From the IMG/VR virus record IMGVR_UViG_3300030098_006942, positions 1 to 30,465 of that record: a stretch of 30,465 bases of DNA; one strand, given 5' to 3'. This document shows positions 1 through 26,861 of the stretch, one piece after another. The translations under genes were made by a program, and so were the position numbers. Source of the DNA: a virus. The notes under the pieces were generated by a model, which saw only the letters and a list, made by a program, of their open reading frames with translations, was not told where the DNA came from and ran no database searches. The stretch's first letter is position 1. The number at the start of each line of letters is the position of its first letter.

Positions 1-69
1 CGCAAGGATTATCACAATCCTGGTCAAAGCCTATCAAAAGAAACCTCCAAGTTATATAAAATATTATGA
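1..69 (+). CDS. 3' end of an unidentified gene
   Basis: An open frame runs in from the left edge and stops with TGA at 67-69. Only 22 residues are visible (ending KLYKIL), too few to name. Its stop overlaps the ATG of the radical SAM gene as ATGA, so the two are probably translationally coupled. In phages of this layout a terminase or other packaging gene often lies upstream of the portal, but nothing visible proves that here. Confidence 0.6.
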   Translation, partial: RKDYHNPGQSLSKETSKLYKIL

Positions 70-953
70 AAATTGGTCTTTTTGATGTTGATAGTAAAAT
101 CCCTAATTTAGCATTAATGAAAATAAGCAAATGGCATAAATTAAATGGTGATGAGGTTGAACACTATATGCCACTAGCTCATTCTATTTACGATAAAATT
201 TATGCTTCTAAAATATTTAACTTCTCAGATGGTTCTAATTTACAAGATGATATGATTGTTGGAGGAACTGGTATTGATCTTAATATTTCATTACCTAATG
301 AGGTTGAAGAAATGGAACCTGATTATACATTATACAATTATCCCCATAATATAGGGTTTGCTCAAAGAGGGTGTAGATTTAATTGTTCATTTTGTGTTGT
401 TCCTAGGAAGGAAGGTAAGCCAAAATCTGTTAATACTATTGAAAAATTATGGACTCAAAGATCATCCAATTTTCTTGTGCTTCTAGATAATGACTTCTTT
501 GGTAATCCAGAATGGGCAGACCGAATTGATGAAATTAAAGAGTTAAATCTTAGAGTTAATTTTTCTCAAGGGTTGAATATCAGAATTATTTCTCAAAAAC
601 AAGCAGAAGCATTAGCATCTGTAAAATTCAGAAACATCAATAATACTGGGAGTCAAGTAACATTTGCTTGGGATCAGATCAACGATGAGAAGGTAATCAA
701 AAGGGGTTACCAGAGAGTTGTTGATGCTGGCATAAAACCATATCAAATGCAGTTTTATGTACTTATCGGTTATGACACAACTCCAGAGGAAGATATGCAT
801 CGAGTTATGATGTTGAAAGATTGGGGTTGTGATCCATATGTAATGCCTTATGATAAAACTGATCCTTACCAAAAGAAATTTGTTAGATGGGTTAACAGGA
901 GACAAATATTTAATTCATGTACTTTTGAAGAATATTTAAAAATTAAACGATAG
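66..953 (+). CDS. radical SAM domain protein
   Basis: A 295-residue protein with the radical SAM cluster motif CxxxCxxC at C103, C107 and C110 (RGCRFNCSFC), which in this superfamily binds the [4Fe-4S] cluster that cleaves S-adenosylmethionine. The first ~90 residues (start MKIGLFDVD) look like the short N-terminal region that precedes the barrel in B12-binding-type radical SAM proteins, but are too short for a full cobalamin domain. Residues 110-260 fit the barrel: DNDFFGNPEW, NFSQGLNIR, FYVLIGYDTTPEED. The substrate is unknown. It overlaps the preceding gene by 4 nt and sits directly before the portal gene, so it is carried with the packaging/head block. It is a candidate host-modifying or auxiliary enzyme, or a nucleic-acid or protein modification enzyme. 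The fold assignment is secure, the role is not. Confidence 0.88.
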   Translation: MKIGLFDVDSKIPNLALMKISKWHKLNGDEVEHYMPLAHSIYDKIYASKIFNFSDGSNLQDDMIVGGTGIDLNISLPNEVEEMEPDYTLYNYPHNIGFAQRGCRFNCSFCVVPRKEGKPKSVNTIEKLWTQRSSNFLVLLDNDFFGNPEWADRIDEIKELNLRVNFSQGLNIRIISQKQAEALASVKFRNINNTGSQVTFAWDQINDEKVIKRGYQRVVDAGIKPYQMQFYVLIGYDTTPEEDMHRVMMLKDWGCDPYVMPYDKTDPYQKKFVRWVNRRQIFNSCTFEEYLKIKR

Positions 954-20988: not shown

Positions 20989-23310
20989 ATGGATGCTACA
21001 GAAATTTTAAGAAAATATAAATCTGGATTAGAAAAAGGATATTCTACAGAAAGATTAAAAGAAATTTTCATGGCAAATGGAATTAACTTAGATTTATATT
21101 TAAATTCTGAAGAAGAATTTCAAAAAGATTCTCCTGAATCAGAAATAATAGAATTAATAAAACCAAAGGAGAAAAAACCTGATCCCCAATTTGTTGATAT
21201 TTGGGACCCTAAATATACTGGTCAAGGTGGTAAAGAAAAATTATTATCTGATATTAAATCAACTGAATTTGATGATATTACTGGGAAACAATTATTTGGA
21301 ATTGCCAGGAATATTTTACAAGGAGCAACATTTGCTTATGGTGATGAAATTGAAGCTCGGTTGAGATCAGTGGTTAGAAATCAGATGGGAGTAAAAACTT
21401 CATATGATTTAGAGTTAGATAAAGTTCGTAAAGAAATGGAAGAATTTGCAAAAGAAAACCCAATTTCTTCAATAGCAGGAGAAGTTGCAGGTGGATTTTT
21501 GGTCCCAGGATTTTTAACTGCAAAATTAATAAAATACTTACCTAAAGTTGGAAAAATCCAAGAAGGACAAATGCTTATGAATGCTCTCAGAAGATCCTTA
21601 TATGGGGCTTCTGGTGGTTCTGTTGCAGGAGGACTTTATGCGAGTGGTATGTCTACTGGTGAAGTTGGTTCTGAAGAATTTTGGGAGGATACTGCAGAAG
21701 GAGCTAAATGGGGTGGTTTGACAGGTGCAGTTGCAGGTCCAACATTAGGTTTGGCAGGAGAAAAAATAACAGAGCTTTATCAGGATATTAAAAAACCACT
21801 AAAAGATCATGTTGATGTTGGGTTAAAAGGGAAGGCTGATAAGGATGTTAAAAGAGAAATGCTTGTTGCAATCCAGGCACAAGATTCTGGTATTGATGAT
21901 TTATTAAAACAGCTTGATGAATATGAATTGGAAATGCCAAATAATACAACTTGGGTAAAAGACCCACTTCTTAGAGAAACAATTACTGTTGGTGATTTAA
22001 TGGATACTGGGTCAGTGGGTGAATCAATGGTTGATTTGACTCAGCAATTTCCAAGTATGGGGTCTAAAAATATATCTGAAAATTTCATCAATCGAGGAAA
22101 AGAATTCCCAAGAATGACTGAAAAGCTGATTGGGAAGCACATCGGGAAACAAGTTAAAATTGATCCTGAGAGATTTTATAAAAATTTGGAACGTATGGGG
22201 GAAATAAAATCAAAAAAATTTTATAATATTGCTGACCCTGTTGAATTTAATTCATTAGATTTAATAAATGCTGTAAACAGACATTGGCACAAAGGATCAA
22301 AAACAGAAGAAGTTGATTCATCAAAAATGATTAAAAAAGCATGGATTGATACTATTAAAAGAATCCCCAAAATAAGAAAGAAAAAAAATATTCCAGGTCA
22401 TAATTTTGGTTCAAAACCTGGTAGTTATCTTCAAGGGACAAAGACTTATGAAAAAGATCAAATTCTGATGTGGGATACATTTAGAAAACAATTAAAAAAA
22501 AGGAGAGATAAACTACCAGATTCTCCTAAAGGCTTTGATCGAATGGATGCAGATGATCTTAATGATTTGATAAAAACAATCTCAACAAAATTAGAATCAG
22601 TTTCAGGGGATTATAAAAAAGCAAAGGACTTATGGTCAACAGGTCCTAAATTTAAAAAAGCATTTGAAAAAGGAATGAAAGCTGAAAAAAACAAAAAAAT
22701 AACATCTACAGAAATGATTAAACAACTTCAAGGAATGAGTGATGGTGAAAAAAATATGTTTAGACTAGGTTTTGCTCACAACTTATATGCAAAAATTCAG
22801 ACTCCTAATTTTAAGTTGAAACCAACTCCTGAAAAACTTCTAGGTCTTTTATCAGATCGTCAAAATGAAAAAATTAGAGTTTTATTTAAAACAGAAGAAT
22901 TAGCAAATGAAGTATTAAAAAAGATAGATATAATTTCTAGAATGGATGCTAAATCAAAATCATATTGGGGAAATTCTGCAACAGCGAGAAGACAATTTGC
23001 AAAAGAAACTATGGAGAAAAAACCACACCTAGTGGGTAAGGCTATTGAGACTTTTCAAGACTTGAGAGGTGGTCTTGGTAATCGTTCTGCTACGAGATTT
23101 TTAACTTCTTCCAGTGATATTAATAGAAATACTGCCAGGAATCAATTGTGGAATAGACCAGGGGTTGAATCTTCAAGGCAAACGCTGAAAAATTTACAGG
23201 ATCTTCAGCGTTTTGACCTTGAGAAGGTAGGAGTGAGACCTCAATTCCCTGCTTTTATGGGTGGGTTGTTAGCTCCTGGTACTGCTAGAATGGGATGGTC
23301 TGAAGATTAA
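20989..23310 (+). CDS. large putative internal virion/ejection protein
   Basis: A 773-residue protein. A region near residues 95-115 (QGATFAYGDEIEARLRSVVR) and hydrophobic glycine-rich segments (IAGEVAGGFLVPGFLTAKL; LYGASGGSVAGGLYASG; GGLTGAVAGPTLGLAG) follow a pattern that I associate with large internal proteins of podoviruses. The rest is highly basic and helical with many KKIP/KKKN runs. The glycine-rich hydrophobic stretches could form transenvelope channels. It begins directly at the previous stop and ends 1 nt before the convergent stop at 23312. Confidence 0.65.
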   Translation: MDATEILRKYKSGLEKGYSTERLKEIFMANGINLDLYLNSEEEFQKDSPESEIIELIKPKEKKPDPQFVDIWDPKYTGQGGKEKLLSDIKSTEFDDITGKQLFGIARNILQGATFAYGDEIEARLRSVVRNQMGVKTSYDLELDKVRKEMEEFAKENPISSIAGEVAGGFLVPGFLTAKLIKYLPKVGKIQEGQMLMNALRRSLYGASGGSVAGGLYASGMSTGEVGSEEFWEDTAEGAKWGGLTGAVAGPTLGLAGEKITELYQDIKKPLKDHVDVGLKGKADKDVKREMLVAIQAQDSGIDDLLKQLDEYELEMPNNTTWVKDPLLRETITVGDLMDTGSVGESMVDLTQQFPSMGSKNISENFINRGKEFPRMTEKLIGKHIGKQVKIDPERFYKNLERMGEIKSKKFYNIADPVEFNSLDLINAVNRHWHKGSKTEEVDSSKMIKKAWIDTIKRIPKIRKKKNIPGHNFGSKPGSYLQGTKTYEKDQILMWDTFRKQLKKRRDKLPDSPKGFDRMDADDLNDLIKTISTKLESVSGDYKKAKDLWSTGPKFKKAFEKGMKAEKNKKITSTEMIKQLQGMSDGEKNMFRLGFAHNLYAKIQTPNFKLKPTPEKLLGLLSDRQNEKIRVLFKTEELANEVLKKIDIISRMDAKSKSYWGNSATARRQFAKETMEKKPHLVGKAIETFQDLRGGLGNRSATRFLTSSSDINRNTARNQLWNRPGVESSRQTLKNLQDLQRFDLEKVGVRPQFPAFMGGLLAPGTARMGWSED

Positions 23311-23311
23311 A

Positions 23312-23641
23312 TTAATAGGATCTGACTCTCCACAGACCTCTATAAATAGGACCATTCCATTCCCAACCATTTTCTTCAACCCAGTGATCTCTATCCTCTG
23401 GAGATTTGACCCAATTCAGATTTAATTTCTCTCTGTATTTTATTATTTTATTAGGAATTTTTTTCACTATTTTTTTAATTTTTGTACAGGTGGGACAATA
23501 CTCTTTAGGTGTTTTTGCATTAGAGTATACTGCACATCCAGTGACTCTCTCACAGACATATTCATAGTCTGATGGTAGTTCATTCCCAAAAGAAAAAAAT
23601 GGTGCAACAGAGAGGATTATAATAATGATTATGTGTTTCAT
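23312..23641 (-). CDS. exported small protein
   Basis: A 109-residue product with a clear signal peptide (MKHIIIIIILSVAPFFSFG) followed by four cysteines (CERVTGC, CPTC) that could form disulphides or bind a metal, and a tryptophan-rich end (WEWNGPIYRGLWRVRSY). GAGGAAG precedes its ATG. Last gene of the leftward unit, ATGA-coupled to 23638. A secreted or envelope-located lysogeny protein is plausible; family not recognised. Confidence 0.65.
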   Translation of the reverse strand: MKHIIIIIILSVAPFFSFGNELPSDYEYVCERVTGCAVYSNAKTPKEYCPTCTKIKKIVKKIPNKIIKYREKLNLNWVKSPEDRDHWVEENGWEWNGPIYRGLWRVRSY

Positions 23642-23988
23642 ACTTCCTCTTCATCTAAGTCATAATGCCATTGATCTCTTGGGATTAAGCAAAATGGTTC
23701 ATGCTCTGCCTTAGAGTCTATTATCTGGTCACCCAAAATGTGAGTGTCATCCCAACTTGTGACACCCAATTTATTTACAGGTTCATTGTTTCCAAAAGAT
23801 GGGAATTTTGTGTCATACCAGAAAGTGGAATACTTAAAGTATAAGTCCCTTTCAGCATTTGTACCCTCCAAATATTCATCAGTAGGTAACTCATTCGAAA
23901 TTTTATTCAACACATCACACAATTCTTGCAAATTGGTGGTACTGTTGATTTCTTTTCGTAATTCCCTTTTTGATCTGGGCTTTTTCAT
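23638..23988 (-). CDS. unknown acidic protein
   Basis: A 116-residue product: basic start (KKPRSKRELRKEIN), then NLQELCDVLNKISNEL and an acidic tail (HYDLDEEEV). No recognisable domain. The first 60 residues could be helical. In the leftward accessory unit. Confidence 0.65.
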   Translation of the reverse strand: MKKPRSKRELRKEINSTTNLQELCDVLNKISNELPTDEYLEGTNAERDLYFKYSTFWYDTKFPSFGNNEPVNKLGVTSWDDTHILGDQIIDSKAEHEPFCLIPRDQWHYDLDEEEV

Positions 23989-23990
23989 AT

Positions 23991-24146
23991 TTACTCTCCT
24001 TTCTCTTTTTTAATTAAATCGTTACAGGCTTTTTCAACCCATGAAGATATAAAAACTTTGTATTCTTTTTCTTCTAGATGATTAATTATTTTATTATAAA
24101 CTTCTTCACTTACTGTAAGATGTTTAAAATTCTTTTCTCTACTCAT
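23991..24146 (-). CDS. small ribbon-helix-helix-like protein
   Basis: A 51-residue reading frame: MSREKNFKHLTVSEEVYNKI, then a charged turn and ISSWVEKACNDLIKK. The strand-helix-helix layout and spacing fit Arc/MetJ/CopG-type DNA-binding proteins that bind as dimers, where the strand residues touch DNA. Overlaps the upstream gene by ATGA and precedes 23638 by 2 nt. It may autoregulate this leftward unit. Confidence 0.55.
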   Translation of the reverse strand: MSREKNFKHLTVSEEVYNKIINHLEEKEYKVFISSWVEKACNDLIKKEKGE

Positions 24147-24403
24147 GAAACCTCCAAAATGTATGGGTTACCCGATTTTGTTTGATGCCTTGGAATCTCA
24201 GCATAAGTGCCTGAATCTGAAATTAAAAAAAATGGGACCCCTTCACAAGTTGTTCCTAAATCTTCTGGATAGGAGCAATTATTAATGAACCACTCATCAA
24301 AAAGTTTTTGGTTTGCAGGGTTTACTCTATATTCTTTTTTGACAACCCTGTTGTGTTCTAACCTTAAATTATTTAAGGTCTTTTTATTTAATTTTTTTCT
24401 CAT
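24143..24403 (-). CDS. unknown small protein
   Basis: An 86-residue product with a very basic start (MRKKLNKKTLNNLRLEHNRVVKK) and a mixed C-terminal half (DLGTTCEGVPFFLISDSGTY). AGGGGGAAT precedes ATG 24403. Gap to the recombinase upstream is 11 nt. No family recognised. Confidence 0.6.
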   Translation of the reverse strand: MRKKLNKKTLNNLRLEHNRVVKKEYRVNPANQKLFDEWFINNCSYPEDLGTTCEGVPFFLISDSGTYAEIPRHQTKSGNPYILEVS

Positions 24404-24414
24404 ATTCCCCCTAA

Positions 24415-24984
24415 TTAAAGATTAATAGATTTAGCTAATTCTAAAGCAGAATTATCACTCACTCCAAGATATGCAGATGTTGCAGTAATACTACTTTGTC
24501 CAAGTAATCTCCTTACAGCATCTACATCATGTGTTTCTTCATAAATTGCTGATGCTTTACTTTTTCTCAACGAATGAGTTGAGTATTCATCTATATTTTC
24601 AATACCGATACTCTTCATCCAACACTTTACAATCCTTGCATACTGTTGAGATGTGATGGATTTCTGAGTATATATTGATTTAGACCCAGTAAAAATAAAA
24701 TCATCCTGGGATTTATTTTTTAAATACTTCTCAATAACTCTTTTGGAATTTTCTAAAAGTGGAATTGCCAGAGTGGTTTTACCTGTCTTTTTTTGCTTCA
24801 CACTAACAGCATCTTTCAATTTTCCAGAAGTGTGGATTACATCGGATACCCTCAGTGCTAAGAGATCTGAGGATCTGAGCATTAAATCAATACCCAGGTT
24901 TAATAGAAGTTCGTGTAGAGGATTCCCCTTCACGATTATTCTGAGTTTTTCTATTTGATTTTTTGTTAGTGGCTTTTTTCCCAT
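24415..24984 (-). CDS. short tyrosine recombinase
   Basis: 189 residues from ATG 24984, which has GGAGAG at ideal distance; an opening at 25029 is inside the upstream hairpin and was rejected. It is only the catalytic domain of a tyrosine recombinase, without the N-terminal core-binding/arm-binding domains. Visible residues are R37 (LMLRSSDLLALR), K66/K67 (KQKKTGKTT), H137 and R140 (THSLRKS), and Y172 (TSAYLG). The usual second His/Trp position is Q163 (LLGQSS). The size is like the Fim-type invertases. A role in inverting or resolving DNA, or helping excision, is possible. Confidence 0.82.
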   Translation of the reverse strand: MGKKPLTKNQIEKLRIIVKGNPLHELLLNLGIDLMLRSSDLLALRVSDVIHTSGKLKDAVSVKQKKTGKTTLAIPLLENSKRVIEKYLKNKSQDDFIFTGSKSIYTQKSITSQQYARIVKCWMKSIGIENIDEYSTHSLRKSKASAIYEETHDVDAVRRLLGQSSITATSAYLGVSDNSALELAKSINL

Positions 24985-25011
24985 ATTGCTCTCCATTCTT
25001 ATGTGTAGTTT

Positions 25012-25029
25012 ATGCCCCCGAAGGGGCAT
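25012..25029 (-). promoter_or_regulatory. hairpin with UUCG loop
   Basis: On the minus strand ATGCCCC and GGGGCAT pair around TTCG. C(UUCG)G loops make very stable hairpins. It sits between the stop at 25036 and the recombinase start, with no U-tract, so it may be an RNA processing or attenuation element rather than a terminator. Confidence 0.55.
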
Positions 25030-25035
25030 GGTTGG

Positions 25036-25320
25036 TTAACAGTGATTAGCGTTGTGAAAATCGACAAAAGCAATAGCGTCTTCTTTATTGCCAAAAAAAC
25101 AAAAGTTATCGAGTTCACCTGCAAATTCAACAATCCACTCAGCAGTCTCAGGATGTTGACCAAGAATATTTGCAACACCAAATTTTTTAAGGATTTCAAG
25201 TTGATTGTCTTTTGCTCCTCTTTCAATTTCGTAAGTGCGGTTACCAAAGTTAGAATCATAACTTGAGTAACTATTACGGAAATCTTCTCCGGCTAAGTTT
25301 AAAGTTGTTGGGGGGTTCAT
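25036..25320 (-). CDS. unknown protein, first gene of leftward unit
   Basis: 94 residues from ATG 25320, with GGAGAATAAT in front; an opening at TTG 25332 lies inside that ribosome site. The C-terminal part (GQHPETAEWIVEFAGELDNF, AIAFVDFHNANH) appears globular; family not recognised. First product of the strong leftward promoter, so probably well expressed in lysogeny or early infection. Confidence 0.65.
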   Translation of the reverse strand: MNPPTTLNLAGEDFRNSYSSYDSNFGNRTYEIERGAKDNQLEILKKFGVANILGQHPETAEWIVEFAGELDNFCFFGNKEDAIAFVDFHNANHC

Positions 25321-25368
25321 ATTATTCTCCAATCAAGTTAAATAAGGTTAAATTTAATTGTTTAAATT

Positions 25369-25397
25369 ATTTTAAAATTATTTAAACTTTATGTCAA
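25369..25397 (-). promoter_or_regulatory. strong leftward sigma70-type promoter
   Basis: Minus-strand TTGACA (25397-25392), 17-bp spacer, TAAAAT (25374-25369). Upstream on the same strand (25398-25440) are phased A-tracts resembling an UP element. It lies ~50 nt before the first gene of the 25320-23312 unit. Confidence 0.8.
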
Positions 25398-25466
25398 GTC
25401 TTTTTTTAACTTTTTTTTATTTTTTTTTTAATGTATGATTTTTTTACTTAAAAAGTGGAGATTTTT

Positions 25467-25540
25467 GATCGCATTCAAATCGCATTCAGATACAAAAAAC
25501 CCCCAAAAAAGGGGGTATGATCGCATTGATCGCATTCAGA
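25467..25540. repeat. left arm-type repeats of attP (four copies)
   Basis: The core ATCGCATT occurs at 25468, 25479, 25520 and 25529, with most copies extended to GATCGCATTCA. They come in two close pairs, 11 and 9 bp apart. With the two copies at the right they flank the tRNA core, as integrase arm-binding sites do. A terminator lies between the two pairs. Confidence 0.75.
25494..25515 (-). terminator. rho-independent terminator, leftward
   Basis: On the minus strand CCCCC, TTTTTT, GGGGG followed by TTTTTTG: a 5-bp GC stem with a U-tract. It is 165 nt beyond the integrase stop (25680), across the tRNA core, and so would end the integrase message only when attP is intact. Confidence 0.8.
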
Positions 25541-25561
25541 ATTAATACCCCATATACCTTC

Positions 25562-25574
25562 TAAGTCATTGATA
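25562..25574 (-). promoter_or_regulatory. IHF-consensus site, left of core
   Basis: The minus strand reads TATCAATGACTTA, a full match to the IHF consensus WATCAANNNNTTR. It lies between the arm repeats and the tRNA core. Confidence 0.65.
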
Positions 25575-25578
25575 TTAT
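25570..25578 (+). promoter_or_regulatory. possible promoter for the rebuilt tRNA
   Basis: TGATATTAT is an extended -10 element ending 6 nt before the G that would be tRNA position 1. No convincing -35 is present. It overlaps the IHF site by 5 nt. It would drive a tRNA rebuilt after integration. Confidence 0.35.
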
Positions 25579-25584
25579 AGGTGT

Positions 25585-25627
25585 GGGTCGGTAGCTCAGC
25601 TGGTAGAGCATCTGACTTTTAATCAGA
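25585..25627 (+). tRNA. 5' portion of tRNA-Lys(TTT): attP core
   Basis: 43 nt match the first part of a bacterial tRNA-Lys: acceptor arm GGGTCGG, D-arm GCTCAGCTGGTAGAGC, anticodon arm TCTGA-CTTTTAA-TCAGA with anticodon TTT at 25618-25620. Identity ends at the 3' side of the anticodon stem; there is no variable loop, T-arm or acceptor 3' strand afterwards, so this is a fragment and not a working tRNA gene. It is the probable crossover region shared with the host's tRNA-Lys gene. The 5-bp inverted arms around a 7-nt loop fit the core sites of a tyrosine recombinase. Confidence 0.88.
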
Positions 25628-25641
25628 ACACACTCTAAAAA

Positions 25642-25654
25642 TATCAATAACTTA
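25642..25654 (+). promoter_or_regulatory. IHF-consensus site, right of core
   Basis: TATCAATAACTTA is a full match to WATCAANNNNTTR. It is the inverted partner of the site at 25562-25574: a 19-nt arm at 25637-25655 is nearly the reverse complement of 25561-25579. Confidence 0.65.
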
Positions 25655-25671
25655 GGCAGTTATTTTGGGGG

Positions 25672-25693
25672 GATCGCATTCAGATCGCATTCG
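25672..25693. repeat. right arm-type repeats (two copies)
   Basis: GATCGCATTC at 25672 and 25683, 11 bp apart. The second copy encodes the last codons of the integrase on the minus strand (N-A-I) and its stop codon lies within the first copy, so the coding end has been shaped by the arm sites. Confidence 0.75.
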
Positions 25694-26861
25694 AGTTCTG
25701 ATACTCTTCTAGTTTTTTCATTTCCTCTAAAAGATGAACTGGGAATGTATGCTTATATTTTTTAAGCATAGCATCAGTTTTGTGACCTGACACATCTTTA
25801 ATATAATCATCTTTCATACCAGAGTGCATCATATCTGTTATGCCTGTATGCCTCAAATCATGCCAATGGAAGTCCTCAAGACCTGCTTTTTCTCTTGCTG
25901 TTTCAAAAGCCTTTCTGAGACTTTTTGGCTTGTTAATATATTTAAATGTTCCTTTCCTTTTATTCCCTTGAGATGCAGGAAAAACATATTGAATCCCTTC
26001 CTGTTTATTTTTATACAATTTTTTGAACGTATCCCAAATTTGCTGATTCAAAATTGGAACTGTTCTAGGAGATCCATTCTTAGTATCTGTAAATACTAAC
26101 CACTGATTTTCAAATACAACATCATCCCATTTTAATTTCCATATTTCCCCTTGCCTTGCAGATGTTTTAATAGCCAGAATTACTGCAAATCTTAATTCTG
26201 GTCCACAACAAAATAAAAAATCTTTTCTTTGTTGTTTGGTGAGTGGTCTTGTTCTCTCGGGGGGTTCAGGCTTCCTGATAATATCTTTCCAAGAACAAGG
26301 ATTGTGGGTTATCCAAGGGGGTTTAAATTCTCTGCAGTATTTCCCTAAGAGTGATGAAAGAATTGCAGTGTATCGATTTATGGTTGAGTTGGATCTCTCA
26401 GGAGTTTTTAACTTTTCTAGCGTTTCTTCAATAATTTGAGAAGTTATTTCAGAGAGTTTAAGATGTCCTATTTCTTTTTCCCAAACACCCAACTGTTGAA
26501 TGGCTGAATCTTTATATTTTTTAGATTTTAAATCAATATAACTACCTTTAGTTTCGGTAGCTTTTTTAATAGCATCAGAAAGAGTGTGTCTATCTGCTTC
26601 CTCAGTTACTTTCTCTAAGACATACTTCTCTAGTTCTTTTTCTATTTCTTGTTGTTTTATAAACCACAATTTAGTCAATTCTGCTTTGAAATCTTTTGCA
26701 GTTTTAGGAAGCTTATCCAGACTAATCAAGTCCCTTTCTGGAGATCTTCCCCCAGGTTTCCTATATTTAGGAAATCTCCCTTTCCACCAGATTTTACCAT
26801 TTTTTTTGGTGTACTCGAAGTAGAGATTCCCTCGATTCATTTTTCTTTTTTTATTTCTCAT
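25680..26861 (-). CDS. int: tyrosine integrase
   Basis: A 393-residue phage integrase. The N-terminal ~80 residues (basic, with FEYTKKNGKIWWKGRFPKY) look like an arm-binding domain, ~90-190 is the SAM-like core-binding domain, and the catalytic domain follows. Catalytic residues are visible: R236 (TSARQGEIWKL), K261 (TDTKNGSPR), H334 and R337 (HDLRH), H360 (SGHKT) and Y369 (KKYKHTF). It would catalyse integration at the adjacent tRNA-Lys fragment. GGAGAG precedes ATG 26861, and the gene overlaps the upstream gene by 11 nt. It ends inside the right arm repeats, as is usual for int next to attP. Confidence 0.95.
   Translation of the reverse strand: MRNKKRKMNRGNLYFEYTKKNGKIWWKGRFPKYRKPGGRSPERDLISLDKLPKTAKDFKAELTKLWFIKQQEIEKELEKYVLEKVTEEADRHTLSDAIKKATETKGSYIDLKSKKYKDSAIQQLGVWEKEIGHLKLSEITSQIIEETLEKLKTPERSNSTINRYTAILSSLLGKYCREFKPPWITHNPCSWKDIIRKPEPPERTRPLTKQQRKDFLFCCGPELRFAVILAIKTSARQGEIWKLKWDDVVFENQWLVFTDTKNGSPRTVPILNQQIWDTFKKLYKNKQEGIQYVFPASQGNKRKGTFKYINKPKSLRKAFETAREKAGLEDFHWHDLRHTGITDMMHSGMKDDYIKDVSGHKTDAMLKKYKHTFPVHLLEEMKKLEEYQNSNAI

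Follow-up and report, generated by a model that had tools for sequence, protein, structure and literature searches.

A tRNA-Lys(UUU) 5' half as the probable core of a lambda-type attachment site in a podovirus-like phage

Results

The tRNA-Lys fragment and its surroundings

The DNA considered here, an IMG/VR virus record with 30,465 bases and 35% G+C, was analyzed over its whole length (the window). Its structural genes are podovirus-like, with kin among marine, spring-water and Pseudomonas phages. They lie to the left of the locus described below; an integrase gene, a regulator and Erf/RecE-like genes lie to its right. HTVC106P is a structural relative in which no integrase is annotated. The phage, of about 30 kb, also carries a gene for a Radical SAM domain protein (66-953, plus strand; PHROG 9298, 1e-77) upstream of its portal gene.

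Between the two groups of genes, the plus strand at 25585-25627 reads GGGTCGGTAGCTCAGCTGGTAGAGCATCTGACTTTTAATCAGA and corresponds to positions 1-43 of a tRNA-Lys(UUU), the core region of the attachment site proposed here. The acceptor 5' strand (1-7), T8, A9, A14 and G18G19 can all be recognized, the D stem GCTC/GAGC is perfect, and the anticodon stem TCTGA/TCAGA encloses the loop CTTTTAA with anticodon TTT. The Rfam tRNA model (RF00005) gives the fragment 31.6 bits, above the gathering score, aligned over model positions 1-71, and blastn finds phage tRNA-Lys genes with about 91% identity over 42-43 nt (E of about 1e-6 to 1e-7). Directly 3' of 25627 the DNA is ACACACTCTAAAA in place of GGTC and a T-arm, so the tRNA identity ends before the 3' half. 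The initial annotation had claimed that the phage holds the 5' part of a tRNA-Lys and not the 3' part, with a match from G1 to the end of the anticodon stem. Both statements are borne out: the fragment is exactly positions 1-43, every stem present in it is intact, and a continuation over the 3' half, which would have contradicted them, is absent. The further claim of identity to the target was drawn from the tRNA consensus; that annotation never made a comparison with a host sequence. The exact 43-mer has no match in genome_contigs, and a 38-mer has none in viral_contigs; since no genome of genome_contigs holds the 43-mer, identity to the host tRNA is what we infer. Searches of genome_contigs with the exact 43-mer and with integrase peptide patterns gave no host, lysogen or empty site. 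Neither ARAGORN nor the Rfam tRNA model finds a complete tRNA gene in the 30,465 bases of this record, which may be incomplete.

The integrase

The adjoining gene on the minus strand (25680-26861) encodes a tyrosine integrase of 393 aa (PF00589, 8e-23; PHROG integrase, 4e-53), in whose alignment the catalytic residues R236, K261, H334-x-x-R337, H360 and Y369 are all present. From its sequence, the recombinase that a lambda-type site needs is intact, with the full R-K-HxxR-H-Y set. The gene reads leftward to the attachment site and the tRNA fragment reads rightward; int ends at 25680, outside 25585-25627. Peptide patterns of this integrase find no close relatives in viral_contigs or genome_contigs. 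A second tyrosine recombinase of 204 aa, consisting of the catalytic domain only (24415-25029, minus strand; PF00589, 1e-19), lies about 550 bp from the attachment site; it could serve DNA inversion or act as a partner of the main integrase.

Arm-type sites, IHF sites and the inverted repeat

The fragment is embedded in a set of short repeats. The motif ATCGCATT occurs in six exact copies in the window, all on the plus strand within 25468-25691, against 0.37 expected, and none of 100 shuffles reaches six. Four copies lie to the left, as a pair at 25468 and 25479 (25468-25486) and a pair at 25520 and 25529 (25520-25536), and are the candidate P-arm sites. The two on the right, at 25673 and 25684 (25673-25691), are the candidate P'-arm sites and merely overlap the int stop. 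Nearer the fragment, two exact matches to the IHF consensus WATCAANNNNTTR lie in inverted orientation: TATCAATGACTTA on the P side (25562-25574, minus strand), of H type, and TATCAATAACTTA on the P' side (25642-25654, plus strand), of H' type. These are two of the eight exact matches in the window on both strands, and the simulated chance of finding both so oriented, within 60 nt on each side, is 2.5e-5 at the intergenic base composition. Measured from the centre of the anticodon loop, the arm sites stand at -147, -136, -95, -86, +57 and +68, and the IHF sites at -51 and +29.

In lambda, attP comprises P1/P2, H1/H2, core, H' and P'1-3, and the region runs int, attP, sib. The spacing of arm and IHF sites in the window is close to that layout. 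A lambda-type attP needs repeated arm-type sites to the left and right of its core, and IHF sites between arms and core; putative sites of both kinds are present here, and together with the adjoining integrase the locus looks like a complete attP of this type. The anticodon loop (25616-25622, plus strand) would, from its place in the tRNA, be the overlap region for strand exchange, with the arms of the anticodon stem as the core-type sites.

The fragment is bounded by the arms of a 28-nt inverted repeat (25561-25588 and 25628-25655), the top-scoring one in the window for a 43-nt spacer. Each arm includes an IHF site, and the repeat consists mostly of these two sites in inverted orientation. 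No other 105-nt segment of the window folds as stably as the corresponding minus-strand RNA (25556-25660; -39.1 kcal/mol, z -7.6). Its outer stem has 16 pairs and would be split by integration. A terminator function for this hairpin was considered and rejected, as a U-run follows it on neither strand. A hairpin with a T-run resembling an intrinsic terminator is found farther along, at 25499-25516 on the minus strand, downstream of int and beyond attP (two such elements found against 0.2 expected).

Related attachment sites

Among kin whose genomes are substantially complete, the nearest is IMGVR_UViG_3300030098_004691 (hereafter G004), whose portal protein is 56% identical. There an integrase gene is followed by the 3' half of a tRNA-Phe(GAA) with its CCA (locus L174, 3750-3797, minus strand) at the same genome position, which marks it as the place of attP in this lineage. 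The G004 site has direct repeats on either side, and the IHF consensus is absent from it. The integrase of the window matches nothing in 50 kin records, and among the 38 of these 50 examined with PF00589 and tRNA models, an integrase together with a tRNA fragment is found only in G004. In the wider integrase family, T-arm fragments occur alone, some 70-200 bp beyond int and on the other strand, and no D-arm-only fragment is left once one apparent case (L085), a prophage adjoining a complete host tRNA-Thr, is explained. L224, another rejected candidate, is a full tRNA with a changed T-loop.

How common is the use of a 5' half? Two scans of viral_contigs for the 5' and the 3' sequence of tRNA-Lys(UUU), with 120 stretches each among the matches listed, give at least one true 5'-only and, judged by eye, at least 17 true 3'-only fragments. 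A complete scan of viral_contigs (IMG/VR), filtered for a tRNA position 46 other than G and a position 48 other than C, gives 21 contigs. Five of them have full tRNAs, seven are isolate-derived records in which a 5' half is orphaned, and nine have 5'-only fragments. The seven are left out of the count as probable non-reconstructing integrations. Each of the nine fragments has an integrase gene at a distance of no more than about 1.3 kb; this gene is upstream on the same strand in five (L365, L367, L369, L371, L374), downstream on the same strand in three (L363, L366, L380), and convergent, as in the window, in L191. Those of L191, L363 and L366 are near contig ends and could be integration junctions. 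That nine other environmental contigs turn up, and that int takes at least three arrangements in them, suggests a recurring class, and the tRNA-Lys 5'-half attP design is rare, recurrent and partly precedented.

Two of these contigs allow a closer comparison. In L365 (7742-7784, minus strand) and L369 (2663-2705, plus strand) the tRNA-Lys 5' half follows int inside a phage genome, and the open reading frames beyond attP include primase- and DNA-polymerase-like genes of T7-like appearance. Both IHF sites recur in L365 in the orientation of the window, including the one on the P' side, and L369 has the left one exactly. On the right flank, ACACACYCTAA and the IHF motif are common to both contigs and the window, and L365 also shares ACACACTCTAA joined to the IHF motif. 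The attP-spanning hairpin is seen in neither contig. The right flank of L365 carries in addition GGCTCAGTTGG, which resembles a second D-arm piece. In L363 (at 10437) and L366 (at 8912, minus strand) the 5' half lies upstream of int, and farther on there is a protein whose end is like that of a single-subunit RNA polymerase; here, integration could let the host tRNA promoter read into int.

Discussion

A proposed route of integration at the anticodon loop

We consider it probable that the locus serves a temperate podovirus-like phage as a lambda-type attP whose core is a host tRNA-Lys(UUU) 5' half, and that integration would rebuild the tRNA behind the phage P arm; this reading is drawn from the arrangement of motifs and genes. 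IHF would bend the DNA so that Int is brought into place, and Int would exchange strands within the anticodon loop. On the B-O-P' side, the host 5' half, with the host promoter ahead of it, would then be joined to the int end and left as an orphan. On the P-O-B' side, the phage 5' half and the host 3' half would form the sole complete tRNA-Lys at the locus. Given the orientations of int and the tRNA fragment and an exchange in the anticodon loop, the complete tRNA has the phage P arm upstream of it, and its transcription would have to come from the phage side. The rebuilt copy could be dispensable if the host had a second tRNA-Lys gene.

A candidate promoter for the rebuilt tRNA

That the working tRNA would be transcribed from the phage side had been proposed in the initial annotation, together with an extended -10 box as the promoter. 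The topology supports the former if the crossover is in the anticodon loop; the promoter is not secured, and which promoter drives the rebuilt tRNA is the weakest step of our explanation. The extended -10-like motif TGATATTAT is indeed present 6 nt upstream of G1 (25570-25578, plus strand); over the whole window this strand has only 13 motifs of the form TGnTATAAT with at most one mismatch (0.43 per kb). The stretch from 23310 to 25585 contains no plus-strand gene and offers no candidate source of read-through, so transcription of the tRNA would need a promoter in the P arm or farther upstream. Against the motif being a promoter, it has no -35 element, and a sigma-70 consensus scan of 25330-25700 gives no plus-strand promoter. 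It also overlaps the exact left IHF site, which is mirrored on the opposite flank and conserved in related 5'-half attPs, and so may be part of an IHF motif and not a -10 box; TGATATTAT itself is not kept in L365 and L369. That it is a genuine extended -10, and that a phage promoter thus drives the rebuilt host tRNA-Lys, is plausible, though we lean slightly against it. Because the candidate overlaps the IHF site, tRNA expression may be in competition with the excision complex for this DNA.

We also put forward a larger scheme, as speculative and rather unlikely. The P arm would serve as the 5' control region of the host tRNA, shared by the IHF, Int and excision complexes and by tRNA-Lys transcription. 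Lysogeny would couple the supply of tRNA-Lys to the state of the prophage, and the hairpin split by integration would be a sib-like switch for int, much as lambda sib is parted from int upon integration. The sib-like role stays conjecture, because the inverted IHF sites explain much of the hairpin and L365 and L369 do without it.

Alternative readings

The fragment might instead mark a lysogeny in which the host tRNA-Lys is broken and not rebuilt, a complete phage tRNA-Lys takes over, and the 5' half is incidental. Such tRNA-dependent lysogeny is known for actinobacteriophages: for Fionnbharth, attB is a tRNA-Lys-TTT and a whole phage tRNA replaces the broken host tRNA, the core being about 10 bp long (PMC10865867). 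The seven isolate-derived records of our scan (56-103 kb) are probably of this kind, with an orphan tRNA-Lys 5' half beside tRNA-Glu, tRNA-Asp and tRNA-Phe genes and, in most of them, a complete tRNA-Lys(UUU)-type gene, in one case (G102) about 140 bp past the orphan. The window would share with these cases the tRNA-Lys target and a lysogen whose tRNA supply depends on phage DNA. It differs in having no complete tRNA of the same isotype, although in a linear and perhaps incomplete record such a gene may lie outside. The published cases, moreover, have only about 8-10 bp in common with their targets (PMC10865867), against 43 nt here with D and anticodon stems intact. We judge this reading improbable.

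A further reading takes the fragment for the remnant of a tRNA-Lys gene that the phage once encoded, or for a tRNA-like RNA lacking a T-arm, at a place that is no attachment site; this would fit the Rfam alignment over model positions 1-71 and the strongly folding region in which the fragment lies. Decay would, however, have to have removed the 3' half entirely and left every remaining stem intact, and arm sites and IHF sites surround the fragment, int adjoins it, and homologous phages have the same layout. The T-armless gene was rejected because arm sites, IHF sites and int mark an attP, and we regard the reading as a whole as very improbable. Least credible of all is that the fragment is host flank at the junction of an integrated prophage. 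Such orphan 5' halves exist in IMG/VR, but here phage genes stand on both sides of the fragment, and G004 has its attP at the same place.

Comparison with known attachment sites

The lambda-type attP with a tRNA 5' half as its core can be set beside several known systems. Like lambda, the window has int, then attP, then a terminator-like hairpin on the int strand; it differs in that its core is half a tRNA gene and in that a host tRNA would acquire the P arm as its 5' flank. With the canonical 3'-half sites it shares the tyrosine integrase, the core at the anticodon loop, one tRNA half in the phage, and the direction of the tRNA relative to int seen in its integrase-family relatives. The difference is that the window carries the 5' half, which lies across the crossover from int, and the T-arm and 3' end are absent. 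A review of archaeal tyrosine recombinases describes bacterial tRNA genes as keeping their original promoter after integration with very few exceptions, and pTN3-like integrases as using the 5' half (PMC8371274); 5'-half cases are, in its passage citing Williams 2002, seldom encountered in bacteria (PMC8371274).

For pTN3 and TKV4 of Thermococcales (Int-pTN3), attP and attB have 41 bp of a tRNA-Leu 5' half in common, and integration of pTN3 rebuilds an intact tRNA-Leu away from its original promoter (PMC5495485; PMC8371274). The window attP likewise has a tRNA 5' half without the 3' half. The pTN3 system is archaeal, and its attP lies within the integrase gene, so that int is split upon integration and its promoter comes to lie ahead of the tRNA. 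In the window, attP is outside int and convergent with it, with IHF sites and repeated arm sites as in lambda, and we therefore do not file it as pTN3-type in the strict sense. Among marine podovirus-like phages, the T7-like cyanophages S-TIP37 and P-SSP7 have int followed by an attP that matches a tRNA, and integration has been demonstrated (PMC8776855). The window is likewise podovirus-like, with an attP that matches a tRNA after int; the target of the cyanophages is tRNA-Leu.

Implications

In the usual account, the phage takes the 3' half of the tRNA and the host promoter is kept, and a 5'-half attP reverses this arrangement. The phage of the window and its 3'-half relative G004 form a natural pair, with which one can test why 3' halves are the dominant choice. 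If the proposed route is true, transcription of an essential host tRNA would hinge on phage DNA, and a prophage whose P arm is lost or decays could be lethal to the cell.
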